Notes under the pieces: generated by a model
Seen by the model: only the letters and a program-made list of their open reading frames with translations
The model's database searches: none
Told to the model about the DNA's origin: nothing
Program-made: the position numbers and the translations under genes
Part shown: one piece after another, positions 4,125-49,037 of the stretch
How the letters are laid out: each line of letters starts with the position of its first letter
How positions within the stretch are numbered: the stretch's first letter is position 1
Origin: Halomonas ventosae
GTDB lineage: Bacteria > Pseudomonadota > Gammaproteobacteria > Pseudomonadales > Halomonadaceae
Length of the DNA: 64,000 nt
Direction of reading: 5' to 3'
Assembly (NCBI RefSeq): GCF_004363555.1
Contig: NZ_SNZJ01000006.1
Span: 124,001-188,000, forward strand

Positions 4125-4892
4125 TTACTGCATGCGAATCCCGCCGTCCAGGCGGATCACCTCGCCGTTGAGCATGGCGTTAGTGATGATCTGCTCGGCC
4201 AGGCGGGCGAACTCGTCGGGCTTGCCGAGCCGCTTGGGAAAGGGCACGGCGGCGGCCAGGGCCTGGGCGGCCTCGTCGGGGATCTCGCTCATCATGGGGG
4301 TCTCGAAGACCCCGGGGGCAATGGCCATCACCCGCACGCCGTGGCGCGAGAGCTCCCGGGCCGCCGGCAGGCTCATGCCCACCACGCCGGCCTTGGAGGC
4401 GCTGTAGGCGCACTGCCCCACCTGGCCATCCATGGCGGCGATGGAGGCGGTGTTGATGATCACCCCGCGCTCACCGTCCTCACCCGGGGCGTTGCCCGCC
4501 ATGGCCGCGGCGGCCAGTCGCATCACGTTGAAGGTGCCCACCAAGTTGATCTGGATGGTGCGATTATAGGCCTCGAGGTCGGCGGGGTTGCCCTCGCGAT
4601 CGACCAGCTTGCCCACGCTGACCACCCCGGCGCAGTGCACCACACCGGCGAGGCCGCGGCCATCGCTGAGCTCCACCGCCACATCGACGGCCGCCTGGAT
4701 GTCCTCGCCGGAGGTGACGTCGCCGCGCACCGCCCGGGCGGCACCGCCCAGGCGCTCGGCGTGGGCCTCCACGGCGTTGCTGAGGTCGCAGAGCACCACC
4801 CGGCCGCCGGCGGCGACCAGGCGCTCGGCGGTGGCCGCCCCCAGCCCGGAGGCGGCCCCGGTAATCAGAAAGGTATTGTCCTTCAGTTGCAT
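4125..4892 (-). CDS. short-chain dehydrogenase, 3-hydroxyacyl-CoA dehydrogenase type II-like
   Basis: 255 residues with a Rossmann nucleotide motif [13 protein letters not shown] near the N-terminus, VVHCAGVVS in place of NNAG, catalytic serine in [10 protein letters not shown] and the YSASK tetrad. The overall pattern resembles the HSD17B10/type II 3-hydroxyacyl-CoA dehydrogenase group, which fits its place between an acyl ligase and an acyl-CoA dehydrogenase. I chose the ATG at 4892 because GAGGA precedes it by 7 bases and family members start just before LITGAASG; an upstream in-frame extension is not supported. It lies 16 bases after the ligase stop, so the two are co-transcribed. The substrate is inferred. 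Confidence 0.85.
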
Positions 4893-4908
4893 GTCAGGAT
4901 CCTCGGAG

Positions 4909-6573
4909 TCATTTGGCCGGGGCCTCTTCGGCCTTGTCGACGGCATCGGCGCGCAGCTTGAATCGCTGGATCTTGCCGCTCGGAGTCTTGGGCAGCTCCT
5001 CGACGAACTCGATCACCCGCGGGAAGGCGTGGGTGGAGAGCCGCTCGCGCACCTGCTTGCGGATCTCGTCGGCCAGGGCATCGCTTGCCTCGTAGCCCTC
5101 GCGCAGCACCACGTAGGACTTGATGATCTCGCCGCGGATCTCGTCGGGCTGGCCCACGGCGGCGGACTCGGCGACGGCCGGGTGGGTCATCACGCTGTTC
5201 TCCACGTCGGTGGGCCCCACGCGATAGCCGGCGGTGGTGATGATGTCGTCGTCGCGACCGGCGAACTGGAAGGTGCCGTCCTCGTTGCGGATCACCACGT
5301 CACCGGTCAGGTAGTACCCTTCGGCGAAGGGGTGCTTCTCCTGCCAGGTGTAGCCGGCGAAGAAGTGCGCCGGGGAGTTCTCGATGTCCACGGCCAGCAC
5401 GCCCGGCTCGCCCGGGGGCAGCTCGTTATACTCGGCGTCGAGGATCGCCAGGCGGTAGCCGGGCATCGGTACGCCCATGGCGCCGACATGCTTGGGATGG
5501 TCCAGGGCATGGTGGTTGTTGCAGGTCATGCCGGTCTCGGTCTGGCCGTAGTGGTCCATGACCGGGCAACCCAGGGAGCGCTCGACCCAGGTCACCACCT
5601 CGGTGTTGAGCGGCTCGCCGGCGGAGCTCGCCGCGCGCAGCTCGAGGGTCTGGTGGGCATCATCGAAGAGGCCGGAGGCCTTCATCAGGCGGTAGGCGGT
5701 GGGCGCGGCGGCGAAGTTGGTGATGCGGTGGCGCTTCATGAAGGCCAACGCCCCCTCGGCGGAAAAGCCCGCCTCGCAGAAATGGGTGGTCACCCCCAGC
5801 AGCAGCGGCCCGGCGATGGCGTAGTAGAGGCCATAGGCCCAGCCCGGGTCGGCCATGTTCCAGAAACGGTCGGTGTCGCGCAGGTCGACGGCCAGCTCCA
5901 TGTAAAGGGCGAAGGCCGGCATGGCGGCCAACGGCACGGCAACCCCCTTGGGCTTGCCCACGGTGCCGGAGGTGAACATCTGCAGGAAGGGCTCGTCGCG
6001 GGAAAGGCGCGGCGGCGTGGTCTCGATCGGCGCATGCGCCAGGGCATCATTCCAGTCCAGGTCGTCGCCGTGGTCGGCATCGGGGCCACCTACCGCCAAC
6101 ACCGGCGGGCACTGGGTGAGGCCATCGAACTTGAAGCGATTGGCATGATCGGTGATCACAAGGCGGGTGTCGGCGCGGCCCAGGCGGTAGTCCACGGCGT
6201 CCGGACCGAAGGCGGTGAACAGCGGCTGGTAGACGGCACCGATGCGCCAGGTGGCCAGCACCGCCACCAGCAGCTGCGGCGAGCGCGGCAGCATGCAGGC
6301 GATCCGGTCGCCCACGCCCAGGCCACGCTCGGCGAACCAGCCGGCGAGCCTGGCGCTCTCGGCATCGAGCTCGGCGTAGGTCAGGGTGTTGACCTGGCCC
6401 TGGGTGTCCTCGTGCACCAGGGCCAGCACGTCGCCACGGCCGGCACGCAGGTGGCGCCCGCAGCTGGACTCGAAGGCGTTGGCCTTGCCGTCGCGGTGGT
6501 CATCGAGGCGCGCGATGACGTCGTCGATGGAAAAGGTCTCGAGGTAGCTCTGGTAGTCGGGAAGGGTGCTCAT
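4909..6573 (-). CDS. AMP-dependent acyl-CoA synthetase (acetyl-CoA synthetase-like)
   Basis: 554 residues of the ANL adenylating superfamily, activating a carboxylic acid to its CoA ester through an acyl-AMP. Motifs in order: MFTSGTVGKPKGVA (ATP loop), DHYGQTETGMTCNN, YLTGDVVIRNEDGTF with FAGRDDDIITTAGYRVGP (hinge), and the C-terminal lysine in KTPSGKIQRFKLR. Length and motif spacing resemble medium- or short-chain acyl ligases more than FadD. The start at 6573 has GAGAGG upstream. It is the first gene of an operon with the short-chain dehydrogenase. A palindromic site and the CAAGCGCTAG motif shared with the TetR promoter lie upstream. Confidence 0.85.
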   Translation of the reverse strand: MSTLPDYQSYLETFSIDDVIARLDDHRDGKANAFESSCGRHLRAGRGDVLALVHEDTQGQVNTLTYAELDAESARLAGWFAERGLGVGDRIACMLPRSPQLLVAVLATWRIGAVYQPLFTAFGPDAVDYRLGRADTRLVITDHANRFKFDGLTQCPPVLAVGGPDADHGDDLDWNDALAHAPIETTPPRLSRDEPFLQMFTSGTVGKPKGVAVPLAAMPAFALYMELAVDLRDTDRFWNMADPGWAYGLYYAIAGPLLLGVTTHFCEAGFSAEGALAFMKRHRITNFAAAPTAYRLMKASGLFDDAHQTLELRAASSAGEPLNTEVVTWVERSLGCPVMDHYGQTETGMTCNNHHALDHPKHVGAMGVPMPGYRLAILDAEYNELPPGEPGVLAVDIENSPAHFFAGYTWQEKHPFAEGYYLTGDVVIRNEDGTFQFAGRDDDIITTAGYRVGPTDVENSVMTHPAVAESAAVGQPDEIRGEIIKSYVVLREGYEASDALADEIRKQVRERLSTHAFPRVIEFVEELPKTPSGKIQRFKLRADAVDKAEEAPAK

Positions 6574-39775: not shown

Positions 39776-40553
39776 ACCGTGCCTGGATCACGCCACCCTG
39801 CCAGACCAGCAGCTCGCCGGGCACCATGCGCACCCACTCCTCGTTGTCGGTGAGCGGCTCGGTGGCAATCACCGAGACCACGTCGTCGGGCGTGGTGTGC
39901 TCGGCGAAGTTGACCGTCAGCTCGGCATCCGAGAGGCTTGCCCGGCCGAAGGGCGCCCGCCGCGTGATATGGGCCAGCTTGGTGGAGCAGAAGGTGTAGA
40001 GGTAGTCGCCGTCGGCCAGCAGCAGGTTGAAGACCCCCAGGCCCCTCAGCCGCTCACAGAGCCCATGGAGGGTCCCCCAGAGGGCGTGGCGCTGGGCGTC
40101 ATTCGCCGGCGGGTCGGGAAAGGCGCCGCGAAGCTCGCCGAGCAGCCAGCAGAAGGCATGCTCGCTGTCGGTGCTGCCCACCGGGCGGTAGAAGGAGTGC
40201 GACAGGGCCTGCCAGTCGGCGAGCTGGCCATTGTGGGCGTAGCACCAGGGGCGCCCCCACATCTCGCGGACGAAGGGGTGAGTGTTGGCCAGCCGCACCT
40301 GGCCGACGTTGGCCTGCCGGATGTGGCTGATGACGATGTGCGACTTGATGGGGTAGTCGCAGATCAGCCGGGCGATGGGGGAGTGCACCGAGGGATGCGG
40401 ATCCCGGAAGTCCCGGTAGCCGCCCTCCTCATAGAAGGCGATGCCCCAGCCGTCACGGTGTGGCCCGGTCCCCCCGCCACGGTGCAGGAAGCCGGTGAAG
40501 CTGAAGCAGATGTCGGTGGGCACGTTGGCGCTCATGCCAAGCAGCTCACACAT
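39765..40553 (-). CDS. class II glutamine amidotransferase (YafJ-like)
   Basis: 262 residues. The nucleophile is Cys2 (MCELLGMSANVPTD), with SHIRQANVG, NTHPFVREMWGRPWCYAHNGQL and GSTDSEHAFCWLL as in the glutamine-hydrolysing Ntn domain. It is a stand-alone amidotransferase domain of the YafJ type, whose acceptor substrate is not settled. Start and ribosome site (GGGAGGAA) lie inside the left copy of the 24-bp direct repeat bounding the island. Before insertion its ATG would have overlapped the stop of the VWA gene now at 43430. Confidence 0.88.
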   Translation of the reverse strand: MCELLGMSANVPTDICFSFTGFLHRGGGTGPHRDGWGIAFYEEGGYRDFRDPHPSVHSPIARLICDYPIKSHIVISHIRQANVGQVRLANTHPFVREMWGRPWCYAHNGQLADWQALSHSFYRPVGSTDSEHAFCWLLGELRGAFPDPPANDAQRHALWGTLHGLCERLRGLGVFNLLLADGDYLYTFCSTKLAHITRRAPFGRASLSDAELTVNFAEHTTPDDVVSVIATEPLTDNEEWVRMVPGELLVWQGGVIQARFKT

Positions 40554-40567
40554 GGGGTTCCTCCCGG
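40544..40567. repeat. left 24-bp direct repeat (att-like)
   Basis: Identical to 43428-43451. It contains the start codon and ribosome site of the amidotransferase gene. Flanking bases differ on both sides, so 24 bases is the full identity. Confidence 0.85.
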
Positions 40568-40587
40568 TGTGATTGACGTTGAGAATC

Positions 40588-40616
40588 AGTATGCTAGAAG
40601 GCAGCCAGTCTCACAA
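40588..40616 (-). promoter_or_regulatory. candidate outward promoter of the island
   Basis: Minus strand TTGTGA (40616-40611), 17 bases, CATACT (40593-40588), reading out of the island into the amidotransferase gene 35 bases further. It could replace the operon promoter cut off by the insertion. An inverted repeat CTCAACG/CGTTGAG lies next to it (40637-40655). Confidence 0.4.
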
Positions 40617-40753
40617 ATTGGCGAGTGTCTCAAAGACTCAACGCCGGCCGTTGAGAGATCCAGTGCATGCTAACCCCCGCTTGACCATCTGCAGTGTTGC
40701 ATACTCAGCAATTTGCGTACTTTTGGAGCTAGTGGCGATGGAGTGGAGTGAAT

Positions 40754-41302
40754 ATGGATAACGTCGCGATTGCCGTTTTGAGCATACTGATAGGCGGCTA
40801 TATTGCCTCCCTCCGCTTTCGGTATGAGCGCGCCTGGCAGATCAAACACGAGTTTTATAGCGACCTGCTAAAAGCGCTAGACGAAATACGGCTGTATGCC
40901 AATGATGGGGCAACCATGAACATCCCGGCAGGGGGTGCTTTAACGGACCTAACCGAAACTGAAATCCATGGACTGATAGGACGCAACGTAGCTTGGCTAG
41001 GTAGATCCATATCTACCTCATCAATATTTATAAGCCCCCAGGCCGTTGATGCTATCAGGAACTATGTTTCAGCAGCGAAGGGGCATCACTTCAACCTGGC
41101 CAACGCCTTCCCCAGCGAATACGAAGACCAAGAAGAGGCGTTCGATCATGCTGCATTCTGCAAACATGCTGAATTGGCGGAAGAAGCCGCAGATGAGATA
41201 GCTGCGTTGGCCCGAAACGACTTGCACGGCCGGCCTTGGCTGAGGGGTTTGGGCCGCTTGCGAAACAATGACCACAGTCAGGATACCGCAGCCCAAAAGT
41301 AG
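40754..41302 (+). CDS. island-encoded membrane-anchored protein of unknown function
   Basis: 182 residues. One N-terminal membrane segment (VAIAVLSILIGGYIASL, about 4-20) is followed by a basic stretch RFRYERAWQIKHEF and a long, mainly helical cytoplasmic part with acidic character. I do not recognise the family. GGAG stands 7 bases before the ATG at 40754; a GTG two codons earlier is possible. Base composition is far from that of the surrounding chromosome. A good terminator follows at 41313. Its layout, one anchor plus a helical domain, is common among defence and toxin effectors, but nothing specific supports that. Confidence 0.6.
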   Translation: MDNVAIAVLSILIGGYIASLRFRYERAWQIKHEFYSDLLKALDEIRLYANDGATMNIPAGGALTDLTETEIHGLIGRNVAWLGRSISTSSIFISPQAVDAIRNYVSAAKGHHFNLANAFPSEYEDQEEAFDHAAFCKHAELAEEAADEIAALARNDLHGRPWLRGLGRLRNNDHSQDTAAQK

Positions 41303-41312
41303 CTCAATGTTA

Positions 41313-41339
41313 GAGCCGCACCAACGCGGCTCCCCTTTT
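41313..41339 (+). terminator. Rho-independent terminator after the island membrane-protein gene
   Basis: Stem GAGCCGC / GCGGCTC with a 6-base loop, followed by CCCTTTT, 10 bases past the stop at 41302. Confidence 0.8.
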
Positions 41340-41470
41340 GTATCAATGCCCTTCCAGATTCGCTCAACACTGCCAGTGTTACCTTCGCCCTGCCCTAACA
41401 TCATACCATCATTGAAGAATCGTCCAGATGGGGTGTCGATATACACAGCACATGCGACGACAGTGTTTAG

Positions 41471-41791
41471 CGGTGCGCCGAAGAGGTTTTTACGGGAACC
41501 CCTAGTTCAAAGATCACCGAGTTGAGCGCGCAACTTATTGGTCGCGGGCAGTGCTACGTCAACACCCAGGGTCTGACCCAGACATGGGATGGTCGATGGG
41601 CCTACACCATGCGCCGTGCACTGGCCGAGAACGACCTGGAGGCCAGCTTCACCCAGCACGACCTGCGCGCTAAGGTGGGCAACGACGCCGAGAACGACGC
41701 CCGCGCCCAGGAGTTGCTCAGTCACAGCGGTGTGGCCGTCACGCGCCAACACTACCGTCGAAAAAACAAAGCCATCCGGCCGGTAAAGTAA
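41471..41791 (+). pseudogene. tyrosine recombinase (phage integrase) C-terminal remnant
   Basis: The open frame after a TAG at 41468 encodes only the end of an integrase: GRGQCYVNTQGLTQTWDGRW, then FTQHDLRAKVGNDAENDARA (box with the catalytic Arg), LLSHSGVAVTRQHYRRKNK (His region and catalytic Tyr) and RPVK. The N-terminal arm-binding and first catalytic Arg regions are absent; nothing integrase-like is seen in 41303-41470. An ATG is lacking (TTG at 41522 is the first start-like codon), so it is most likely inactive. It is the clearest sign of how the island arrived. Confidence 0.8.
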
Positions 41792-41869
41792 AAAAGGGAA
41801 ATGTGGGGCGGTTTGCAAATGGCAAAACGGGATACATATCAACCATAAAATCCCTTAGAGCTAAGGATA

Positions 41870-42229
41870 TTATGTCTTAGATATGGCTTCGATAATCTCA
41901 CTGCATGTACGAAGGCATTTGCGGGCATCTCGAGGAGTCATGTCATTATGCCAGCGATAATCCGCTTGGTGACGAAGCTCCTTCATCTGCTGAAGCTGTT
42001 TACCTTGCTTTCCCCATTCTTGTTGCCGGCAAAGAGCATCAACAATCTTCTCGTGCGATGCTCCCACTCCAGAGTAACCGTTATCGTTGCAGAACGCTCT
42101 GGCAGTAAGATACGCAGCGTAGTAAGCGCGGTTTACGACACTGCGTATCTGGTGCTGTGCAAGCTCAGGAGCAGCCGTCAAGTCCATCTCCTGAATATGT
42201 AAGGCAATATCGACCAACCGCCGGGGCAT
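41870..42229 (-). CDS. HEPN-like domain protein
   Basis: 119 residues, all helical. The pattern VVNRAYYAAYLTARAFC followed by a late MKELRHQADYRW is that of HEPN/UPF0332-type proteins, where RxxADY lies at the motif that carries ribonuclease activity in toxin members (R86, with H87 and H94 nearby). I use the ATG at 42229, which overlaps the partner's stop (TGATG) and has GGGAGG 7 bases upstream; a TTG at 42235 is less likely. Coupled to the 268-residue gene, it could be the toxin or the antitoxin of a two-gene module. No MNT nucleotidyltransferase partner is present. Confidence 0.65.
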   Translation of the reverse strand: MPRRLVDIALHIQEMDLTAAPELAQHQIRSVVNRAYYAAYLTARAFCNDNGYSGVGASHEKIVDALCRQQEWGKQGKQLQQMKELRHQADYRWHNDMTPRDARKCLRTCSEIIEAISKT

Positions 42230-43035
42230 CAGCAAGCCTCCCGGATTGACTGGCGTTTGGGTATGTCCCTTGCGACGAATGTCACAACCCGCGATAGTTC
42301 AGGGCTCACTCGCTCTGGATCCGCAGACCAATCGAGCAGAGTATCGTCAAGATGGTCCAGAAGCTCTTCTTCCAAACCATCGAAAGACACCTCTGCTACT
42401 ATACCTTCGTAGCCATCTTCGTGATTAACCGGCTCGAAATTAAGCAACACCTTTACATTAAGTTTTCCTGAAACATACGGGCGAATAATCGAATGTAAGC
42501 CAACTATAGCCTCGCGATATTCGCTTATTGGTACGCCTGAACGCTCCAACACGCTAAAGGCATATTCGAATTGAAAATGCTCAACCGTATCGAGATCTAC
42601 CTGTAGGACTTTCATCCTATTATAGATCTCTTGGCATAAGTGCATATCACCGGAATACCAAGCATTCAGCAGAAGGTGCTCAAGTAAATCAGGACTCTCG
42701 CTATCAAGTTCGAAGGCATGGCGTGTCATAGCACTGGCCAGCTCAGGATTGAACGCAAAAAGAACGAGATTGCCAATGTTAGCAAACAAACCGGCCCGGG
42801 CCGGCATGGAGAAAACCTGCTCAGCAGCTGTATCCAGCTTGAGGAAGTCGCGTTCGATCTCACCGACCAGCACATCACGCAGTGCGGTCACCATGGCATT
42901 GTTGCCTGCGCTCGAAATCTCATGGGCCAAGCGCTTGACATCGAAATCGGTCAGCTCGCCACGACGATCCTCCAGACGCAGAGAGAACTGCAGCGCCTGG
43001 CCGATGACGTCTTCTATGGGTTTCGGCTGGACCAT
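42229..43035 (-). CDS. unknown protein translationally coupled to the HEPN-like gene
   Basis: 268 residues that I do not recognise. The middle (about 75-190) is helical and TPR-like: HAFELDSESPDLLEHLLLNA, YSGDMHLCQEIYNRMK. The C-terminal part has a beta-rich stretch KLNVKVLLNFEPVNHEDGYE, then an acidic LEEELLDHLDDTLLDW. No membrane segment, signal peptide, nucleotide-binding or nuclease motif is visible. AGGTG precedes the ATG at 43035. The stop overlaps the start of the HEPN-like gene by one base, so production is linked. Codon use and base content match the island, not the host. Confidence 0.6.
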   Translation of the reverse strand: MVQPKPIEDVIGQALQFSLRLEDRRGELTDFDVKRLAHEISSAGNNAMVTALRDVLVGEIERDFLKLDTAAEQVFSMPARAGLFANIGNLVLFAFNPELASAMTRHAFELDSESPDLLEHLLLNAWYSGDMHLCQEIYNRMKVLQVDLDTVEHFQFEYAFSVLERSGVPISEYREAIVGLHSIIRPYVSGKLNVKVLLNFEPVNHEDGYEGIVAEVSFDGLEEELLDHLDDTLLDWSADPERVSPELSRVVTFVARDIPKRQSIREAC

Positions 43036-43427
43036 GGTGCACCTGAGTCAGTCGGAGGAAATTGATGTGAAGTTTAGCTACTTGATGTACAAGTGTATAG
43101 GTCGCCCCGCTCCACAACCTGTTGAAATACAAGCGATAATGCTAGTAAAAAGCTGGCTAAAAAGGGTATTTTGGACTTATCCACAGACTTATCCAGACTA
43201 GGGTATGGAGGCTGCCCAGCAGACATTTCTGGATCACTTCATCGCGCTTGACTCGATGTCAAGAGAGTCGGGCCATCATACCCATGGATTGATACCACCA
43301 GCTGTCTCACGGCACTCCTACCAAACACCGAAAAACAACGGGTTATCGATCATATCTGAGGGAACCGTGAGACAGTCCGGCACGCGCACGGCGTTGATTT
43401 AATTCGCCGAAATGGCGTTTCCCGGAT
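43036..43427. other. non-coding right end of the island
   Basis: About 390 bases with no supportable gene. It holds the likely promoter region of the coupled pair, the iteron-like DnaA boxes (43174-43197), an 11-base inverted repeat CTGTCTCACGG / CCGTGAGACAG (43302-43312 and 43365-43375), and a small CGCC-GAAAT-GGCG hairpin near the right repeat. The GTCTCAC motif also occurs near the left end (about 40609-40615). Confidence 0.6.
43174..43197. repeat. iteron-like DnaA boxes
   Basis: GACTTATCCACA then GACTTATCCAGA: two 12-base direct repeats, the first containing a perfect DnaA box TTATCCACA. A TAAAAAG pair, also 12 bases apart, lies just upstream (about 43147-43164). Confidence 0.55.
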
Positions 43428-43451
43428 GCTCACACATGGGGTTCCTCCCGG
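43428..43451. repeat. right 24-bp direct repeat (att-like)
   Basis: Identical to 40544-40567. It encodes the last residues (REEPHV) and the stop codon of the VWA protein, so that gene stays intact. Confidence 0.85.
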
Positions 43452-45286
43452 CGCATGGGGCGTCGCGCACGGCGACGCCGGATCAGGCTGCCCACCAGCC
43501 ACACAAGCACCACCAGCACCACGGCGCCCCACAGGCGCGGGTCGCGGCGGTGTGCCTCCCACCACTGATGAAGGCCCGGCGCGCCCGCCTGCCACAGGTC
43601 ACGCGCAGCCTCGGGCAGGCGATTGACCCAGGCGACGAAGCGGTCGGCGGCGCGTTCGGCCGAGGTCTCGGGGGGCGGCAATGAGGTGTCGCTGCGCTCC
43701 CCGTCCTCGACGCGCTCGGTGCCGAGGGTCGGCCCGGCCACGTCCGCCAGGTCGATGCCGACCCGACCTTCGGGGTTGAGCATCAGTCGCGGCAGGGCCA
43801 GCTCGCGGGTCTCGCCATCCAGCTCGAGGGTGGCGGTGAGCAGCAGCGGCTGGCTCAGCTCCTCGTCGAGCTCGGGCAGGTCGAGGTGCCAGCGCGACGG
43901 CCCGACGGCCCGAGCCTCGAGGCCCTCGCCCTGCAGCTCGCCATGGATCTCGGTATTGTCGCGATTCAGTCGGGGATGCTCGGCGGCCAGCACCACCCGG
44001 CCCTCCTCGGGACGGTGCACCGCCCCGATGGCCGGCAGCACGTTCACCGCCTGCACCCGCTGGCGATGGAACGCCTCCCCCTCGGCCCGGAACACCAGAC
44101 GCGCATTGCCGGTCAGCGCCGGTGCCGGCAGGCGGCCACGGAAGCGCCCCGCCTCGGCCTGCAGGGTGACCAGGGACTGTACCTCGCCCTCGGCGTCCTG
44201 CAGCGAGACCGAGAGGGTGGGTGCCTCGACCTCATCGCCGAGGGGGTCACCATCCCGCTCCACCCAGGCCTCTACCGGCACCTCGAAGCCCAGATAGAGG
44301 GTGGTCGGGAGATCAGCGATCCGCAGGTGGAGCGGGGAGGCGACGTTGATACGGCTGCCCTCGCCCACCGGCCCTTCCAGACGCCACTCGCCGACCTGGG
44401 GCTCGGGCACCCGGATCAGGTCGAAGCGTGGCTCCACCTGCCAGCGGATGTCGTCCGGCGCCTCGTCGGCCCGGTAGCGGGTGCCGTCCGGCGCGACCAG
44501 GGTCAAGGGGGCGTCGTCGGGCTCGTGGAAGACCAGCGCCGAGAAGGTTTCCACACCGTCGTCGATGACGAAGCGTCCCTCTTCCAGCGGCACCTGGTCG
44601 GCAGGGAAGATACGCTCGACGATGTCGAGGAAGGCGCCCAGCAGGCTCTCGGGATTCTCCGCGAGTGCCGCCAGCCCGCCGGTGGACTGGGCCAGACGCT
44701 CCACCAGGGCCAGGTCGGCCTGGTCGGAGAAGGCGATGGCATGGATGGTGACGCCCTGGTCGGCCAGTTCGGCGGCGAGTTCGTCCACCAGCCGACGACG
44801 CGAAGCATCATCGACCTCGGGCTTGACCCCTCGTGCCGGTGACAGGTCGATCACCCCATCGGTGAGCAGCACCAGGTGGCGCCAGCCATTGGCTTCGGCG
44901 CTTGCCGCCTCGCGAAGCGCCACCTCGATATCGGTGTACTCCTGGTAATCCTGAAGGGCCGGCGGCAGGGCCAGGGCCCGCTCGCGCCAGGCCGCATCCA
45001 CCTCCCCCAGCGGCAGGGGATTGTCGACCGTCTCACCGAAGGTCCAGACGCCCGCCGTGGCGCCGTTGGGCAACAGCGCTACCAGCATGTCCAGGGCACT
45101 GAGCGCCAGGCGGTCGGGGTCATTCTCCTTCATGCTGCCGGAGACATCGACCACCACCCGGACGTCCGGTCGTTCCTCCGCGCCGACCTGGGCCGGCGCC
45201 TGGCTCGCCCACAGCCATATGGCACAGCCGATGGCCAGTATCCAGGTCAGCCGGCCACAGCGCGTTTCCATGCCACACCCGCCCAT
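43430..45286 (-). CDS. VWA-domain protein with signal and C-terminal membrane anchor
   Basis: 618 residues. An N-terminal hydrophobic stretch (LTWILAIGCAIWLWASQAPA) is a signal, then a von Willebrand A domain with the metal site DVSGSM (about 47-52) and LLTDGVIDLSP. A long beta-rich region follows (about 250-520). Near the C-terminus a membrane helix LWGAVVLVVLVWLVGSLI is followed by a basic RRRRARRPMRR tail. It is probably a periplasmic, membrane-tethered binding protein. SD AAGGAG precedes 45286. It lies 9 bases after the small membrane-protein gene; the original third gene of the operon, the amidotransferase, is now across the island. Confidence 0.85.
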   Translation of the reverse strand: MGGCGMETRCGRLTWILAIGCAIWLWASQAPAQVGAEERPDVRVVVDVSGSMKENDPDRLALSALDMLVALLPNGATAGVWTFGETVDNPLPLGEVDAAWRERALALPPALQDYQEYTDIEVALREAASAEANGWRHLVLLTDGVIDLSPARGVKPEVDDASRRRLVDELAAELADQGVTIHAIAFSDQADLALVERLAQSTGGLAALAENPESLLGAFLDIVERIFPADQVPLEEGRFVIDDGVETFSALVFHEPDDAPLTLVAPDGTRYRADEAPDDIRWQVEPRFDLIRVPEPQVGEWRLEGPVGEGSRINVASPLHLRIADLPTTLYLGFEVPVEAWVERDGDPLGDEVEAPTLSVSLQDAEGEVQSLVTLQAEAGRFRGRLPAPALTGNARLVFRAEGEAFHRQRVQAVNVLPAIGAVHRPEEGRVVLAAEHPRLNRDNTEIHGELQGEGLEARAVGPSRWHLDLPELDEELSQPLLLTATLELDGETRELALPRLMLNPEGRVGIDLADVAGPTLGTERVEDGERSDTSLPPPETSAERAADRFVAWVNRLPEAARDLWQAGAPGLHQWWEAHRRDPRLWGAVVLVVLVWLVGSLIRRRRARRPMRREEPHV

Positions 45287-48032: not shown

Positions 48033-48821
48033 TCAGCTGCCACCGCCGGCACCACCACCGGCACCGCCGCCGGCGCCGCCACCGGAACCACCGCCAGAGC
48101 CGCCACCGGAACCACCGCCGGAACCACCACCGGAGCCGCCACCGGAACCACCGCCGGAGCCGCCACCGGAACCACCGCCGGAACCGCCACCGGAACCACC
48201 GCCGGAGCCGCCACCGGAACCACCACCGGAACCGCCACCGGAGCCGCCATCACCAGCGCCCCCTCCGAAGTGCTCGCCACCGTTGCCGCCGCCATCGCCG
48301 CCGCCATCGCCGCCGCCGTCGCCGCCGTCATCGCCGCCGCCATCATCGCCGCCGCCGTCATCGCCGCCGCCGTCATCGCCGCCGCCGTCATCGCCGCCGC
48401 CATCATCGCCGCCGCCGTCATCGCCGCCGCCGTCATCGCCGCCGCCATCATCGCCGCCGTCATCATCGCCGCCGTCATCATCGCCATCCTCTACGATGAC
48501 ACCACCAGTACCGCCACCGGCCGGGGGCGCAGAGCCACCGTCACCGCCGGTGCCGAGACCGGCGGTGGCGTCGTTACCAGCCCCGGGCGGAAAGAGCAGC
48601 AACAGCTCCTCGGGGCTCTGCCGCGTCGGCAGCCATGACTGCAGCTGCGCCATCTCCTGGTCGTCGAGTACCCGGCCCTCGTTCATGAGGTCGTTGAACA
48701 TCGCCGCCATTTCGTCGTCGCTGAGGGTCTGTCCACTCCACGAGGACGACTGCGCCGACGCGCCGGATGACGCCAGGGCTCCCATCGCCACCACCAGTGC
48801 CAGCTTCCTGAAGCCTTTCAT
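48033..48821 (-). CDS. secreted low-complexity protein with Gly-Asp and Gly-Gly-Gly-Ser repeats
   Basis: 262 residues. A Sec signal peptide (KLALVVAMGALASSGASA, cut near AQSSS) leads to a short folded-looking head (about 25-80, with SDDEMAAMFNDLMNEG and DDQEMAQLQSWLP). A linker follows, then a tract of GGGDD units (about 111-180), a short break at GGEHFGGG, and a tract of GGGS units to the C-terminus. No sorting signal or anchor is seen at the end. ATG at 48821 was chosen by the signal peptide. The family is not recognised. A calcium-binding or spacer role for the acidic tract is only a guess. Confidence 0.75.
   Translation of the reverse strand: MKGFRKLALVVAMGALASSGASAQSSSWSGQTLSDDEMAAMFNDLMNEGRVLDDQEMAQLQSWLPTRQSPEELLLLFPPGAGNDATAGLGTGGDGGSAPPAGGGTGGVIVEDGDDDGGDDDGGDDGGGDDGGGDDGGGDDGGGDDGGGDDGGGDDGGGDDGGGDDGGDGGGDGGGDGGGNGGEHFGGGAGDGGSGGGSGGGSGGGSGGGSGGGSGGGSGGGSGGGSGGGSGGGSGGGSGGGSGGGSGGGAGGGAGGGAGGGS
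48036..48491 (-). repeat. in-gene tandem repeats: 12-bp (GGGS) and 15-bp (GGGDD) arrays
   Basis: The GGGS tract spans about 48036-48265 with a 12-base period; the GGGDD tract spans about 48275-48491 with a 15-base period. All units keep the frame, so copy-number change would alter length without a frameshift. Confidence 0.85.
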
Positions 48822-49037
48822 GATTCTTCCCCTCTGCGTTATCCCATGCTCCCGGGCTTCCCCGTCACACTCGCCGTGCACAACAAACTGTTACACATAG
48901 CACAGCATCGCCGTCGCCCATGACCTGCGCCATAGGACGGAGACATGAAAGAGCCGTCACAGAAGGATGAATCGAGATGCCTACCTGAGCGTGAGGAAAC
49001 TCATACGTCAAGAAATCGCCGGCTAAGCCGCATCACC

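Follow-up and report, generated by a model that had tools for sequence, protein, structure and literature searches.

In a 64,000-nucleotide stretch of Halomonas ventosae DNA (the window), two overlapping genes encode a HEPN-domain protein and a TPR-like partner, a pair that recurs as a two-gene unit, with the regulator upstream. We consider it fairly likely that the pair joins an RNase toxin, carried by a prophage, to a protein that restrains it as antitoxin and sensor, the toxin being a split-site, AF0298-like HEPN and its holder the acidic TPR-like partner. More tentatively, and as something a little short of an even chance, we propose that the pair represents a widespread, undescribed prophage immune system that extends to E. 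coli, with a fast-evolving TPR-like antitoxin and phage sensor joined to a split-site HEPN RNase as an MNT-free counterpart of HEPN-MNT. The initial annotation had suggested an undescribed two-component module; its recurrence supports the word module, and the function is argued below in conditional terms. What the analysis shows is the gene pairing, the mobile context, a conserved putative active site and predicted folds. The pair consists of the following features:

41870-42229, minus strand: HEPN-domain gene, 119 aa from the ATG at 42229 (Pfam PF05168, phrog_5176, model, AF0298 fold, conservation)
42229-43035, minus strand: 268-aa partner gene (ORF, model, TPR-like PDB matches, profile match to phage and other partners)
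42227-42231, minus strand: TGATG overlap of partner stop and HEPN start (sequence)

Both open reading frames are real, and the overlap reported at first can be read directly in the sequence, with the partner stop TGA at 42231-42229 and the overlapping HEPN ATG at 42229-42227; an alternative HEPN start, TTG at 42235, would give the 121 aa of the listed ORF.

The HEPN-like identity assigned to the shorter product was borne out. It scored 32.8 bits against Pfam PF05168, above the curated cut-off of 22, matched phrog_5176 at 2.6e-13, and its model (pLDDT 95.3) aligned with AF0298 (PDB 2hsb) over 107 residues with a Z of 15.3 and an rmsd of 1.8, the next row reaching Z 12.3. A profile match to an AF0298-like protein was obtained at E 0.005, and the nearest solved HEPNs by sequence profile were PDB entries 9xbd and 9xbc, for which we found no paper. 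Seven distant HEPNs that were scanned fell below the PF05168 cut-off or had no match.

An ELRHQADY motif had been noted at the usual active region of this protein, and it is indeed there: the window reads RHQADYRWH, and most of the family has RxxxDY. The H of Rx4-6H is absent from this place, however, in the window and in 33 others of 39 pairs compared, the remaining five (L036, Eva, L076, L079 and L093) having Rx5H at R86. Conservation points elsewhere: R29, Y36, H59 and Y91 occur in 39 of 39 HEPNs, R34 and R86 in 38 (one HEPN has Q at R86), D90 in 35 (E in four) and Y37 in 34 (F in three), counts that lean towards conservation and overstate independence, since it was a HEPN profile that selected the 39 pairs and they share descent. 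Identical or nearly identical copies (L042-L044, L046-L054, L071, L073, L080, L095 and E. coli) were left out of the 39, as were HEPNs without a partner (L097-L107, phage YP3, L045/L055, L056, L059-L068); L096 has a partner-like fragment at its contig edge (E 2.6e-6). The predicted active site is likely split between H59 and R86, with Y36 and Y37, and D90 and Y91 are also conserved. By its score, its fold and its missing motif H together with a conserved alternative H, the protein belongs with PF05168 (HEPN-T, AF0298-like). The idea that it is dead for want of the classical motif was rejected, the alternative residues being nearly invariant. In three loci, HEPN members lie in longer ORFs of 235-287 aa (L082 1501-2208, L125 5595-6458 and L126 3547-4365) in which RNxxEY replaces RxxxDY, and the C-terminal part of those in L082 and L125 looks low in complexity.

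The partner had been described as helical, TPR-like, unrecognised and without an MNT domain. Searches of Pfam (to E 1) and of NCBIfam and PADLOC (to E 10) found no family that it matches, and its best E against PHROGs was 0.06. Its model (pLDDT 90) has ten helices to residue 188, followed by strand-strand-helix-helix-strand, giving TPR-like helices at 7-188 and a C-terminal alpha/beta domain at 195-257; no MNT domain showed in Pfam or in the model, and the TPR-like description stands up to about residue 188 but not for the small alpha/beta domain beyond, so that the protein is not all helical. A search of the PDB with the whole model, rather than with the C-terminal domain by itself, returned mostly TPR proteins, with Z up to 8.3, and these matches of Z around 8 may reflect only a common helical arrangement; by sequence, the best that the partner profile retrieved was designed TPRs (E 0.0035). 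Two siphovirus proteins in BFVD, 242 and 259 aa long, matched the model over its whole length (TM 0.67-0.76); one is uncharacterised, and the other carries the annotation type 4 fimbrial biogenesis protein. Weak TPR matches were also given by distant partners, that of L089 to PADLOC C3a198 'TPR protein' (1.4e-4) and that of E. coli to Pfam TPR_1 (0.003, under the cut-off). The window partner has a pI of 4.61; partners are acidic in 38 of 39 pairs, and the HEPNs are basic in 31 and not basic in eight.

Partners within the family are 25-36% identical to that of the window, and kinship with more distant ones was assessed with profiles. Aligned by hhalign, the family partner profile and seven distant partners gave 96.8% and E 2.5e-10 over 244 columns, compared with 67% and E 5e-5 over 116 columns for a control, an unrelated TPR ORF, against the family profile and 10% when the distant profile was used. 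Most of the evidence for kinship comes from the helices: the helical N-terminal part by itself gave 95.9% over 164 columns, and the C-terminal part 10.6% and 14.1% in two set-ups, where the controls (five shuffled, one reversed, one HEPN) gave 0.1-0.3%. With a 34-member partner profile, the E. coli partners scored 1e-30 or better, and five partners kept out of the profile (L079, L085, L090, L091 and L092), initially assigned by place and size, scored 6e-11 to 0.009; since 6e-6 was also reached by a 492-aa ORF next door, which belongs to no pair, the partners of L085, L090 and perhaps L091 stay unproved. Taking sequence, place, size and pairing together, we regard the kinship of the distant partners as probable, though not proved for the most distant. 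In 34 pairs, the distances between HEPNs track those between partners (r 0.77, reached in 0 of 2000 permutations), which speaks for inheritance as a unit, not for contact. The partner evolves faster than the HEPN: on average partners share 17% identity and HEPNs 27%, and between L033 and L035 the figures are 50% and 78%. A fast-evolving partner beside a nearly invariant putative enzyme amounts to a natural experiment on how sensing specificity might change.

Co-occurrence beyond this genome had been named as a check at the outset, and the pair was found in the host's family, in phages, in a sample of the phylum and in E. coli; that it is private to one genome was rejected on these grounds. Among 275 genomes of the family, ten have the partner (this one included) and 265 do not, and a HEPN gene adjoins the partner in all ten, which exceeds what chance would give. 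The HEPN gene was found in 15 of the 275, with ten strong matches (E <= 2.6e-26) in the same ten genomes; two weak loci, L036 and L037, have a 256- or 267-aa gene directly upstream, and weak matches beyond the loci read are those at L022/L038, L024, L025, L026 and G739:C115. IMG/VR yielded five contigs with HEPN relatives, four of them with the partner. The GTDB contigs yielded 23 loci: nine family members with partner, from the same genomes as in the family count, L057 (a Magnetococcales MAG with two tandem pairs) and L058 (a Sinobacteraceae MAG), also with partner, and 12 without. In four of the latter (L056, L059, L061 and L064) the upstream gene looks MNT-like by eye, from a GS-RG motif. 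A Vieuvirus HEPN query matched 22 phage records, 18 of them from Acinetobacter, and a 250-266-aa gene lies upstream in four Acinetobacter loci (L071-L074), the Pseudomonas phages PG1 and R656 and the gut phage contig L076; the HEPN of Yersinia phage YP3 has no upstream partner.

In the phylum sample (apparently Pseudomonadota), phrog_5176 was found in 30 of 398 genomes, and also in two of 14 control genomes. When 30 loci were read, all 18 with E <= 1.9e-12 (this genome included; 16 from short loci, L080 and L084 from the wider regions L110 and L125, L080/L110 being the same contig as L057) had a gene of 224-291 aa directly upstream, as had three further places in the same genomes (L124, L126 and the second pair of L110); the 12 weaker loci had no full-length upstream gene of partner size. 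Of 5,426 complete E. coli genomes, 44 contain a stretch with 69% identity to the pair of L078, and in 43 it covers at least 80% of that pair. In the two E. coli genomes whose loci were read, the pair is annotated as two 'hypothetical proteins'; their genes overlap by 11 bases, and a prophage integrase gene points towards them from 13 bases away, an arrangement close to that of the window and of L108. Searches with single sequences of the partner or the HEPN against viral, phage and plasmid sets led no further, with no plasmid match for three queries. In a class-wide search with the family partner profile, two of 369 genomes matched, this one and one false, with no true match in the 368 others; the false match, a TPR-rich 665-aa ORF read by eye as sulfotransferase-like, was rejected as a partner.

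Several arrangements depart from the simple pair. The Magnetococcales MAG has two tandem partner-HEPN pairs of different sequence (L057 5922-8348, L110 5026-7452), and in L124 a second partner-like ORF (4283-5218, E 9e-30), without a recognised HEPN of its own, lies upstream of the pair. Several of the weaker phrog_5176 HEPNs (L097-L107) have an upstream gene of about 100 aa with no partner match and, by pattern, no MNT motif; these are perhaps another kind of partner.

In its host genome of 4.02 Mb, the pair lies in an insert between the genes for a VWA protein and a class-II glutamine amidotransferase (GATase). GC is 0.51-0.53 within the insert and 0.65-0.70 around it, and, according to the ORF list and Pfam, the insert holds the 268-aa gene, the 119-aa HEPN gene, an 89-aa integrase C-terminus and a 184-aa ORF:

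40568-43427, no strand: prophage remnant between repeats (GC drop; missing in relatives; G084 prophage at the same site)
40544-40567, no strand: 24-bp direct repeat, att-like, at the GATase gene start (exact repeat; VWA and GATase genes abut in relatives)
43428-43451, no strand: 24-bp direct repeat, att-like, at the VWA gene end (exact repeat)
41522-41791, plus strand: tyrosine integrase C-terminal remnant, 89-aa ORF (PF00589 E 0.0015, under the curated cut-off; 79% identity to the G084 frame)
40748-41302, plus strand: 184-aa ORF in the remnant, outside the two-gene module (no Pfam; phrog_17948 E 0.0012)

The remnant, of 2.88 kb, is flanked by repeats identical over 24 bp, and the repeat sequence covers the VWA gene end and the GATase gene start. 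The integrase remnant and the HEPN gene face each other with their 3' ends across 78 bases. The 184-aa ORF, without a Pfam match, has no homologue at E 0.01 among the compared loci besides its own genome's; its N-terminus looks hydrophobic by eye. The GATase gene is present in all 61 genus genomes searched, and in 23 of 29 loci of relatives (for some via an extended partial alignment) the VWA gene ends within 23 bases of the GATase start; in five the VWA match is too partial to place, and one (L141, genome G084) has no VWA end there. G084 instead carries a prophage of about 38 kb at the same site, with a tape measure gene (phrog_2854, 3e-50), tail genes ending next to the GATase gene and, about 38 kb from the GATase side, an integrase in an open frame of 353 aa that shares 79% identity with the fragment in the window across 82 aa. 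Positions 40402-40632 of the window match G084 at 84%, with 65 of those bases inside the insert. Prophages have integrated at the GATase gene start in at least two members of the genus, and from the repeats, the G084 prophage at the same site and the likeness of the integrases we take the insert to be a shrunken prophage that carries the pair as cargo beside its integrase. In G084, which is not among the genomes with a partner match, little separates the integrase from the att-like sequence and the VWA gene; in the window the pair sits between the integrase and these. The 'island' of the initial annotation is a low-GC insert with prophage remains, and no defence island was seen around the pair in the window. 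At the integrase end of the G084 prophage (L141, L157, L160), two att-like copies lie 188 bases apart, and the stretch between them resembles window 40544-40632.

The settings of related pairs are varied. One protein within about 2 kb of the pair was scanned in each of ten family loci (eight of nine close relatives, L034 being left out, plus L036 and L037): nine match PHROG tail families, and that of L030 an anti-repressor. In phages PG1, Eva and B1251 the gene ahead of the pair is annotated as tape measure, and in phi5013-M1 and Acba_23 a large unnamed gene takes that position. In phage R656 a CI-type repressor gene (PF00717, 4e-16) ends 128 bases before the pair begins; in the window, L108 and two E. 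coli genomes the pair stands beside an integrase at a prophage end; in L123 it precedes terminase genes, and in L118 it is near an integrase/invertase. Single neighbours scanned in L110, L113, L119 and L120 had no PHROG match. This spread of settings argues against a part of the tail and for mobile cargo. The gene at 7849-8406 of L037, upstream of the pair, resembles a SocA/Panacea-type antitoxin and is a candidate for one.

From these findings we infer RNase activity, inhibition by the partner, sensing and an anti-phage benefit, which might fit together as follows. The HEPN would be an AF0298-like (HEPN-T) RNase with a split site to which two subunits contribute H59 and R86 and in which Y36-Y37 would hold the RNA in place. 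Produced first, since its gene is the upstream one of the overlapping two, the acidic TPR-like partner would bind the basic HEPN and keep it inactive, and its fast-changing surface would be the likely reader of a signal from a competing phage or of prophage loss; once the signal is read, the RNase would be released and growth would stop. In the window's genome, the prophage would have decayed with the pair's reading frames staying intact. An RNase toxin with its protein keeper, borne by prophages, would be the simplest account. The partner, with its fast change, is the likely specificity element, and the gene order, keeper first, is as in MNT-HEPN pairs, in which the HEPN is the toxin and its gene lies downstream of the partner gene (PMC3710099). 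A lysogen-type setting, after the CI-type repressor of R656 and beside integrases at prophage ends, counts for this reading; against it, the many copies in tail operons may be expressed late rather than in the lysogen, the strand of the pair shows no promoter-like site, and the scanned neighbours in L110, L113, L119 and L120 lack phage matches. The pair may defend, maintain the prophage, or do both.

Maintenance alone would make the pair a plain addiction module that kills cells losing the prophage and plays no role against other phages, which we hold to be unlikely but the least unlikely of the rivals. The order of the genes as in MNT-HEPN pairs (PMC3710099), the opposite charges in most pairs and the intact frames of the pair next to a truncated integrase would all suit it, yet by itself it leaves the faster divergence of the partner (as in L033/L035) unexplained; since addiction and defence use the same machine, both can be true. 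A HEPN that binds RNA uncut, as proposed for MtlR, with the partner modulating it, is distinctly improbable. It would agree with the lack of Rx4-6H at the usual place in 34 of 39 pairs and with the view that motif-less HEPNs bind RNA (PMC3710099), but H59 in 39 of 39 and R86 in 38 of 39 are likely counterparts of residues essential in a retron (PMC13405049).

Least probable of all, to the point of being very doubtful, is a function in the phage tail module, as a chaperone or regulator of tail assembly or late expression. The tail families matched by nine of the ten scanned neighbours, and the places after tape measure genes or large unnamed ones in PG1, Eva, B1251, phi5013-M1 and Acba_23, speak for it; against it, the pair also occurs after a CI-type repressor, beside integrases, before terminase genes (L123) and near genes without PHROG matches (L110, L113), it is absent from 265 of 275 family genomes, and its putative RNase residues are nearly invariant. 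Tail assembly as the main reading was rejected, the pair being found outside tail modules as well.

Compared with known systems, the prophage-borne toxin with its keeper that we favour resembles HEPN-MNT (type VII; HepT-MntA) in having two genes, with the regulator upstream and the HEPN downstream, and in its HEPN fold (Z 9.8-12.2). Membership was nevertheless rejected: no MNT domain was found in the partner, and the window HEPN lacks Rx4HxY, a motif that is a feature of HEPN-MNT HEPN proteins. The window HEPN matched PADLOC HEPN_IX at 6e-5, a model that we take to be that of the retron HEPN. Its fold list includes structure 9bj7 of AbiV, the single-gene system of Lactococcus lactis, at Z 7.0, which is a weak match. 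AbiV and AF0298-like HEPNs are described as being without motif H and keeping another upstream H, a possible alternative site (Anantharaman 2013, PMC3710099), so AbiV shares the alternative histidine. With AF0298-like HEPN-T proteins (UPF0332; 2hsb) the likeness extends to fold, profile match, absence of motif H and the alternative upstream H (PMC3710099); the window HEPN, for its part, is phage-borne and paired with a TPR-like protein.

A parallel to the putative site comes from a type IX retron. The HEPN of retron-Kva2 has no canonical motif; its H64 and R122 meet at the dimer interface, Y40-42 positions RNA, and T5 defence is lost in H64A, R122A and Y40-42A (PMC13405049, a preprint). Our profile match to it (E 7e-4) covers the Y-Y...H part, with retron Y41-Y42 and H64 (numbering counted from the printed start) aligning on Y36-Y37 and H59; a split H...R site with tyrosines may be common to both (PMC13405049), R86 being the presumed counterpart of R122, which lies beyond the aligned stretch. 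The remnant differs in having, by its ORFs and Pfam, no reverse transcriptase or winged-helix gene; Rfam gave no match at 40000-44000, but its collection may not include type IX. Prophages of Staphylococcus aureus encode another HEPN protein, Tha, an anti-phage RNase that senses tail proteins; it uses R265/H270, carries an N-terminal region on the same chain and has an inhibitor gene, Ith, in antisense (PMC11087260); the window HEPN is 119 aa alone, with no Rx4-6H at the usual place. The LA2681 family also puts HEPN beside TPR, being listed as 'fused to TPR, and in operon with TPR' (PMC3710099 Table 1), and is set apart by its description as a separate HEPN family with Rx4-6H conserved (PMC3710099).

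Our search of the open PMC literature, which was not exhaustive, found no description of this particular pairing. DefensePredictor reports four validated HEPN systems and also TPR-bearing ones, and the pair may overlap with these (PMC13092281). Prophage defence hotspots are established (PMC9122126), and split-site HEPNs were proposed in 2013 (PMC3710099), one having recently been tested in a retron (PMC13405049); the pair would add to them a branch that stands alone, consists of two genes, is carried by phages and has dozens of diverged members. Thanks to the E. coli copies, laboratory strains would allow direct tests of toxicity, neutralisation and phage defence.

A promoter and terminator scan placed no promoter-like site on the pair's strand (one in all, on the other strand, versus 2.7 expected) and three terminator-like sites versus 2.6 expected. 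Elsewhere in the window, in a region of strong GC skew, a 282-aa ORF on the minus strand (48033-48881) consists mostly of GGDDGG and GGGSGGGS repeats.
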